In this document: piece by piece, positions 33,130-34,184 of the stretch
Numbering within the stretch: position 1 is the stretch's first letter
Layout: every line of letters begins with the position of its first letter
DNA from: Thermoplasmata archaeon
Lineage (GTDB): Archaea > Thermoplasmatota > Thermoplasmata > Halarchaeoplasmatales > Halarchaeoplasmataceae
DNA: 64,000 nucleotides
Reading direction: 5' to 3'
Assembly (NCBI GenBank): GCA_003560595.1
Contig: PWKY01000088.1
Coordinates: forward strand, 1 to 64,000
Notes under the pieces: model-generated
Told to the model about the DNA's origin: nothing
Database searches by the model: none
The model's input: the letters and a program-made list of their open reading frames with translations, nothing else
Position numbers and translations under genes: made by a program

Positions 33130-33204
33130 ATTGATATGCTATTCAAAAAAGATATAAAAATTTTCTTGGCGAAAGAGATAAATAATCATCGATAACTCTG
33201 TTGC

Positions 33205-33300
33205 CAAACAGTTTCTTTCGCAAACGGGCTCACTGTTCGGAACTGTGGTTCCAAACGTTCGCAAAGCATAGCTTTGCTCGTAGTCTAGAACTATTCGCAC
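33205..33300. repeat. Hairpin-rich region 5' of the tRNA, including a partial duplicate of the tRNA 5' flank/end
   Basis: GGAAC-TGTG-GTTCC (33239-33252); GCAAAGC-ATA-GCTTTGC (33261-33277); TTCGCAAACGGGCTCA (33217-33232) vs TTCGCACAGGGCTCA (33294-33308). Confidence 0.65.
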
Positions 33301-33301
33301 A

Positions 33302-33375
33302 GGGCTCATAGTCTAGTTGGTTATGACGTCGCCTTCACACGGCGGAGATCGCCGGTTCGAATCCGGCTGAGCCCA
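33302..33375 (+). tRNA. tRNA-Val (anticodon CAC)
   Basis: GGGCTCA/TGAGCCC acceptor, D arm GTCTAGTTGGTTATGAC, anticodon stem-loop TCGCC-TTCACAC-GGCGG, T arm GCCGG-TTCGAAT-CCGGC, discriminator A; CCA not encoded. Confidence 0.95.
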
Positions 33376-33642
33376 CTATAAATCGTCATATTTTAGTGGG
33401 GTAAGAGAATGTGTATGCATTCTTGAGAGCCCACTTTTTTCATAAAAGTGGGTAGTTAGAATCTTTGATTCTGATGAGCCCACTTAAATCGACAGATTTT
33501 AGTGGGGTAAGAGAATGTGTATGCATTCTTGAGAGCCCATTTCTTTTAAAAAATGGTGTTACTAGAAAACGGTAGTTTTCTGGTTGAACCCATTTTAACT
33601 CGCCGATCTAAATGTGGTTACGAAAATGCTTACATTTTGGTT
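33371..33642. repeat. Tandem array of alternating hairpins derived from or anchored on the tRNA 3' end
   Basis: Units start at GCCCA near 33371, 33429, 33478, 33535 and 33588 (spacing 49-58 bp); ~61-bp near-identical direct repeats at 33371-33432 and 33478-33539; each unit has CCCAC..GTGGG-type then AGAATN..NATTCT-type hairpins. Confidence 0.8.
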
Positions 33643-33709
33643 GATTCTACTAAGCCGCGCTTATGTATCCATCGGTATTTTAAAATTGCACTTACTTGTT
33701 AAATATTAT

Positions 33710-33800
33710 AGTGGAAGACATAACTCATGACTAATTCGTTATGTCCTCCACTGCTAGTTAAGGACATATCTAAATTACAGAAAGCATATGTCCTTAACTA
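33710..33800. repeat. Two long inverted repeats
   Basis: AGTGGAaGACATAAC...GTTATGTCcTCCACT (33710-33752) and TAGTTAAGGACATAT...ATATGTCCTTAACTA (33755-33769/33786-33800). Confidence 0.85.
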
Positions 33801-33827
33801 TATTATGGAAAAACAGCAGTTGAAGAG

Positions 33828-34184
33828 TTGGATTCTAAACGACTCGAAGATCTGATAGCTGGAGATAAACTTAGTGTGGTAATGTTTTATTCACCAAAAT
33901 GTTCACACTGTCGATCTATGATACCGGTATTTAATTCGATTTCTGATGAAGTCGATGCAAACTTTGGCAGAGTTAATGTATTGATGAAGCAGCAAACAAG
34001 TTTAAAGCATGGTGTAAAAGATCTACCCACCTTCAAATTTTACTGTAAAGAACAAGAAATCGGTGAGATGATCGGTGAGATATACCCGGCACTCTTAAAG
34101 AACACTATAAAAGATATAATCCGATACAAGAAGGAATGTAATTTCAGACGCTCACGTGTTATCGAGATAGATGGATATGCATAA
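33828..34184 (+). CDS. Thioredoxin-like protein, CSHC active site (TTG start, possibly further upstream)
   Basis: SVVMFYSPKCSHCRSMIPVFNSI...GVKDLPTFKFY. Confidence 0.75.
   Translation: MDSKRLEDLIAGDKLSVVMFYSPKCSHCRSMIPVFNSISDEVDANFGRVNVLMKQQTSLKHGVKDLPTFKFYCKEQEIGEMIGEIYPALLKNTIKDIIRYKKECNFRRSRVIEIDGYA

Follow-up and report, generated by a model that had tools for sequence, protein, structure and literature searches.

Hairpin modules bearing copies of tRNA ends beside the tRNA genes of halophilic Thermoplasmata archaea

Organization of the tRNA-Val(CAC) locus

Contig PWKY01000088.1 of the Thermoplasmata archaeon assembly GCA_003560595.1 carries, within the 64,000 nucleotides (nt) that were analyzed as a whole (hereafter, the window), a transfer RNA (tRNA) gene, tRNA-Val(CAC), flanked at both ends by short hairpin-forming units that bear copies of the ends of the tRNA. 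From the end of this gene to about position 33640, small hairpins alternate with copies of the tRNA end, both direct (GAGCCCACT and variants) and inverted (AGTGGG and variants), and a further unit precedes the gene. The window belongs to a halophilic Thermoplasmata family that includes Candidatus (Ca.) Haladaptatiplasma, and the modules described below appear to form an ancient family of elements, anchored at tRNAs, that has not been described before. The features of the locus are as follows.

33302..33375, plus strand: tRNA-Val(CAC) gene, the anchor (ARAGORN; Rfam RF00005, 68.3 bits)
33226..33301, minus strand: 5' unit, with a copy of tRNA positions 1-7 (GGGCTCA, 33226-33232), two hairpins, a copy of positions 8-15 (TAGTCTAG, 33281-33288) and a short spacer
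33395..33435, plus strand: 3' unit 1, with inverted copy AGTGGG (33395-33400), hairpin AGAATG/CATTCT (33406-33423) and direct copy GAGCCCACT (33427-33435)
33436..33484, plus strand: 3' unit 2, with a loop, inverted copy AGTGGG (33447-33452), hairpin GTTAGAATC ttt GATTCTGA (core 33458-33472) and direct copy TGAGCCCACT (33475-33484)
33485..33541, plus strand: 3' unit 3, with a loop, inverted copy AGTGGGG (33501-33507), hairpin AGAATG/CATTCT (33512-33529) and direct copy GAGCCCATT (33533-33541)
33542..33594, plus strand: 3' unit 4, with inverted copy AAATGG (33551-33556), hairpin AGAAAAC/GTTTTCT (33564-33581) and direct copy TGAACCCATT (33585-33594)
33595..33642, plus strand: 3' unit 5, degenerate, with inverted copy AAATGTGG (33610-33617), hairpin AAAATG/CATTTT (33623-33638) and a tRNA copy past recognition

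The original prediction, made from the letters of the window, described copies of the tRNA end recurring after tRNA-Val. These copies are present (33427-33435, 33475-33484, 33533-33541 and 33585-33594), at positions that had been given correctly to within 2 nt. The stems that it named were also recovered, and the replacements of CCCACT/AGTGGG by CCATTT/AAATGG and of AGAATG/CATTCT by AAAATG/CATTTT are true paired changes. Tandem repeats with a period of 106 and a score of 314 were detected at 33368-33567 (program TRF), and the segment 33302-33660, folded as RNA, reached -132.2 kcal/mol, compared with -91.5 ± 5.3 kcal/mol for shuffled sequences (z = -7.7). A coding explanation of the array, already set aside in the prediction, was rejected, as the array lies between genes and is not covered by any listed open reading frame (ORF) of at least 80 amino acids.

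The proposal that the array grows from the 3' end of the tRNA holds insofar as the array is built on that end, but it is incomplete because both ends of the gene bear units. Indeed, the 5' unit was recognized by R1, a covariance model built from 19 aligned cores (alignment A1, MAFFT), on the minus strand at 33287-33227 (32.5 bits, E 5e-7). Its conserved strand is antisense to tRNA-Val(CAC) and directed away from it, and its fold as single-stranded DNA has a z of -4.5. The 3' array is a divergent member, with a weak R1 match at 33425-33481 (11.7 bits, E 0.41). A DNA similarity search revealed a second array downstream of tRNA-Val(GAC), on another contig of this genome (E = 3e-64, 91% identity over 179 bases), and upstream units with the tRNA 5' end are present at both Val tRNA genes.

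Past the array, at 33710-33800, lie two more strong hairpins with 15-nt arms that are 93% and 100% complementary; the arms are related, and by sequence the hairpins fall outside the tRNA module. They are followed by an ORF (33828-34184) with a CxxC motif (YSPKCSHC), thioredoxin-like by eye.

Anatomy of the modules

In the typical 3' module, the intact tRNA and a spacer of 15-50 nt are followed by part of the T-arm in inverted form, then by hairpins 1 to 3, the second of which has a tandem GA/GA mismatch, and last by a copy of the tRNA that extends from the T-loop to the 3' end. The same element is found on the 5' side in the opposite orientation, bearing the tRNA 5' end up to the D-arm. The conserved core consists of two hairpins, the first of them with the GA/GA mismatch, and the units, of about 50-150 bp, are gene-free. 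A partial tRNA copy bounds the element while the tRNA stays intact, as in elements integrated at tRNA genes.

The copy follows the tRNA beside which it stands. Tails of 3'-side modules (n = 56), compared with the last 24 bases of their own tRNA, matched exactly over a median of 17 bases, versus 5 bases for other isotypes, and the match persists where the tRNA differs between genera, as for the Lys tRNAs CCCCACAGG, CCCCTCAGG and CCCTCCAGG. Copies on the 3' side take in 13-22 nt of the 3' end, from the T-loop region onward, and those on the 5' side, with few exceptions, end in the D-arm (13-23 nt), the lower bound of both ranges being set by the search word of 12-13 bases. The direct repeats take in the tRNA end together with the spacer, as tandem duplications would, with a shared spacer of up to 226 nt, and three near-identical tandem copies behind tRNA-Tyr (locus L013) indicate recent local amplification.

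Occurrence beside tRNA genes

Among 30 tRNA genes whose flanks were read in the genome of the window, the 3' plan follows those for Lys, Gly, Ser, Ala, Met, Arg and Tyr, and 5' units precede those for Thr, Ala, Gln, Arg, Ser and Val. Copies were then counted by seeking the 12-base end of each tRNA within 450 bases on the same side, with expectations taken from shuffles and totals summed over rows. Copies of the 3' end were detected downstream of 34 of 169 family tRNAs (about 0.9 expected) and copies of the 5' end upstream of 36 of 173 (about 1.5 expected), whereas wrong-side copies amounted to 1 in 342. The control families (six genomes from other families of the class) yielded 0/33 and 1/33, and a chance repeat is excluded by the shuffles and these controls. 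Likewise, folding with z below -2.5 was found in 20% and 16% of the family flanks versus 3% in controls. The sole control match, at a tRNA-Met (L081, genome G027), consists of 13 bases copied from the tRNA 5' end and a hairpin upstream, and it resembles a 5' unit in another family. The original prediction had also considered a known repeat family placed elsewhere in the genome: a repeat family does stand beside other tRNAs, but without a match to any Rfam family.

Most of the loci examined had been fetched because they matched R1 or a tRNA, and the counts of placement and orientation are therefore not those of a random sample: 78 distinct R1 matches fall no more than 450 nt from a tRNA gene, 13 stand at contig ends where no tRNA is visible, and 2 have other locations, one behind a tRNA-Leu partly masked by N (L304) and the other without a tRNA, though its unit bears a tRNA-like end (L267). 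Among the 78 matches, 73 point outward, of which 62 are 3' of the tRNA and share its strand and 11 are 5' of it on the opposite strand, versus 4 and 1 that point the other way; the few inverted 3' modules include those of L012 and L038.

The genomes are draft metagenome assemblies. In the assembly of the window, 15 of the 36 tRNA genes have a contig end within 400 bases, versus about 1.5 expected, and thus the assembly breaks at these repeats.

Taxonomic distribution

Across 85,000 species genomes, the core-module pattern was found in 19 stretches, 14 of which belong to Thermoplasmata archaea of soda lakes, the Great Salt Lake and comparable habitats, among them Ca. Haladaptatiplasma halalkaliphilum (Ca. 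Halarchaeoplasmatales in NCBI). All 16 genomes of the family contain R1 matches, with 1-29 in each. Beyond the family, matches were obtained in 5 of 23 class members at E <= 0.1, in 8 genomes of other families among the 150 of a class sample and, under stricter limits, in 2 genomes of other classes of the phylum. Several matches outside the family display by eye the full plan, with the inverted T-arm, GGTTC, the GA-bearing hairpin, the third hairpin and the tRNA-end copy. Beside a tRNA-Gln (L314, genome G024), GAGCAAAG..CTTTGTGAG hairpins form part of a long repeat array whose plan is related but different.

Covariation and inheritance

Selection on folding is supported by covariation. In 85 distinct matches, 96.4% of the base-pair cells are standard pairs, 16 of the 18 pairs have changes on both sides, and 362 double-change cells were counted, versus 104 ± 14 in shuffled alignments and at most 62 with the partners slid. 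The alignment of these matches was fitted to R1, which favours pairing; alignment A1, which is independent, gave 97.9% paired cells and 76 double changes versus 23. In addition, 72 of 74 family sequences retain the tandem GA/GA mismatch. G-T pairs outside two fixed wobble positions make up 1.4% of pairs, versus 3.9% in the tRNA acceptor stems of the same family, in samples that are small and non-independent. The original prediction went further and spoke of an RNA structure under selection. The selection stands, with pairing kept far past chance as the stems change and recurring in relatives, but the reading as an RNA or a tRNA trailer is unsupported, the conserved strand on the 5' side being antisense to the tRNA.

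Identity of the cores was compared descriptively, in pairs that share sequences, and where the tRNA was the same it was 0.65 within a genus and 0.58 between genera; where the tRNAs differed it was 0.50, both in one genome and between genera. The higher identity at the same tRNA indicates that units are passed on mainly together with their tRNA, besides being amplified locally in tandem. A recent spread between tRNAs inside a genome finds no support in these figures.

Comparison with known systems

A cmscan of the window against Rfam returned only tRNA at the gathering score, and RtT was not listed over 33150-33850 even with E-values up to 5; no known RNA family in Rfam matches the array. A literature search for tRNA-flanking hairpin arrays in archaea found no description, most subscription journals being beyond its reach. 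The nearest known precedent is that of the Escherichia coli tyrT repeats with the rtT RNA, in which a 178-bp unit carries about 19 bp of the tRNA 3' end. The likeness lies in repeats behind a tRNA gene that bear the tRNA 3' end; the archaeal modules differ in their three-hairpin plan with GA/GA, in having units at both tRNA ends and at many isotypes, in belonging to another domain of life and in lacking an Rfam match. RtT RNAs are reported from several tRNA operons (PMC4986893) and constitute an RNA family (PMC4986893, PMC2965389).

Mitochondrial double-hairpin or repetitive hairpin-forming elements (PMC2800124) are also short double or triple hairpins with several copies per genome and no known function, but they repeat a single sequence, dispersed over intergenic regions and genes, whereas the placed archaeal matches stand beside tRNAs, carry a copy of the end of their own tRNA and are no more alike within a genome than between genera. 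The PATEs of haloarchaea, derived from IS200/IS605 (PMC3119063), resemble the modules in being small, gene-less and palindromic and in occurring in halophilic archaea. They keep IS605 ends and are found genome-wide, whereas no link of the modules to resident IS605 elements was found; the linkage to a Y1 transposase that characterizes IS605/PATE or REP-type hairpins is likewise missing from the modules. Finally, the tRNA attachment sites of archaeal integrative elements (PMC8371274) share partial tRNA copies limited at the tRNA loops and an intact tRNA gene, but the modules have no integrated genes, are too short and occur at many tRNAs of one genome. As for mobile cargo, there are no genes inside the units, and integrases elsewhere in the genome were not searched for.

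None of these systems (tyrT/rtT, integrases, mitochondrial hairpins and PATEs) has the combination seen here. The modules might, though this is a tentative suggestion, represent a new kind of element, namely, a conserved multi-hairpin module living only at the ends of tRNA genes, outward on either strand, whose copy of the host tRNA end evolves in step with the tRNA, and which could either regulate tRNA genes or be a DNA element that has an enzyme of its own.

Origin of the modules

The explanation that we favour, with a probability of roughly 45%, is a family of tRNA-anchored hairpin modules that act at the DNA level and spread locally by duplicating the tRNA end. A module would arise and multiply via duplication or insertion of DNA at the loops of the tRNA gene, and each event would bring a fresh copy of the tRNA end, so that the tRNA gene would never be broken. 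The hairpins may be selected because they are recognized in single-stranded form, most likely as DNA, by a putative enzyme, and the element would be ancient and mostly vertically inherited, whether selfish or domesticated. The outward polarity on both strands, together with the kept mismatch, favours a DNA element rather than a tRNA trailer or mere palindrome correction; that an enzyme stands behind this anatomy is something that we infer.

Several observations weigh against this explanation. The counts of location and orientation cover fetched loci and are not a census. Copies within a genome are no more alike than between genera (0.50 in both cases) and less alike than those at one tRNA across genera (0.58), so that nothing points to recent movement from one tRNA to another. 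No enzyme was found: Y1 transposases sit in ordinary IS605 elements, and tyrosine recombinases were not searched for. The covariation would be explained just as well if the hairpins were selected as RNA. A resident Y1 transposase as the mover was rejected, as its genes lie in ordinary IS605 TnpA-TnpB pairs at scattered, non-matching places; these genes are 96% identical between genera and absent from 4 of the 16 family genomes at E<=0.001.

The main rival, which we consider rather unlikely, is a function at the RNA level: a structured RNA made with the tRNA, or divergently, would serve in pre-tRNA processing, act as a decoy for tRNA enzymes or be cut from the trailer as a small RNA like the E. 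coli rtT RNA. It accounts for the strong covariation, for the T-G wobble and GA/GA positions fixed on one strand, for the RNA of several modules folding well below shuffles and for the location of most 3' modules on the tRNA strand, and a tRNA-derived repeat RNA of such a kind exists in E. coli (PMC4986893, citing Bosl and Kersten 1991). It is at odds, however, with the 5' side, where 11 of 12 motif strands are antisense to the tRNA, with the inverted 3' modules and with the low share of non-fixed G-T pairs, small and non-independent as those samples are.

Integration by a tyrosine recombinase appears improbable. Micro-cassettes inserted by such an enzyme at tRNA attachment sites would leave the tRNA-end copies as attL/attR remnants accreted in tandem, and archaeal integrases do use the tRNA 3' end or T-loop, or the 5' half in the case of pTN3-like ones, restoring an intact tRNA (PMC8371274). 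The copies in the modules have matching limits and the right polarity, but the units are very short, gene-free, present at many isotypes per genome and inherited with the locus. Carriage by viruses or plasmids was rejected as well: viral contigs had no match to the pattern, plasmids had no match, and phages matched only a tRNA. Least probable of all, and disfavoured, is neutral slippage with template switching, in which tandem duplication and correction of imperfect palindromes would keep the pairing without selection. Local tandem copies exist, and the arms change together with few one-sided intermediates, which speaks for this process; nevertheless, arm-to-arm correction would erase the GA/GA mismatch, and slippage would not keep a single polarity or a three-hairpin plan across families.

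In archaea and bacteria, mobile DNA lands most often at tRNA genes. The modules explain a practical fault of these genomes, which break at tRNAs. If the favoured explanation is true, a gene-less element that sits on many tRNA genes per genome, always sparing them and keeping matching copies of their ends, would represent an uncatalogued way of living on tRNA genes.
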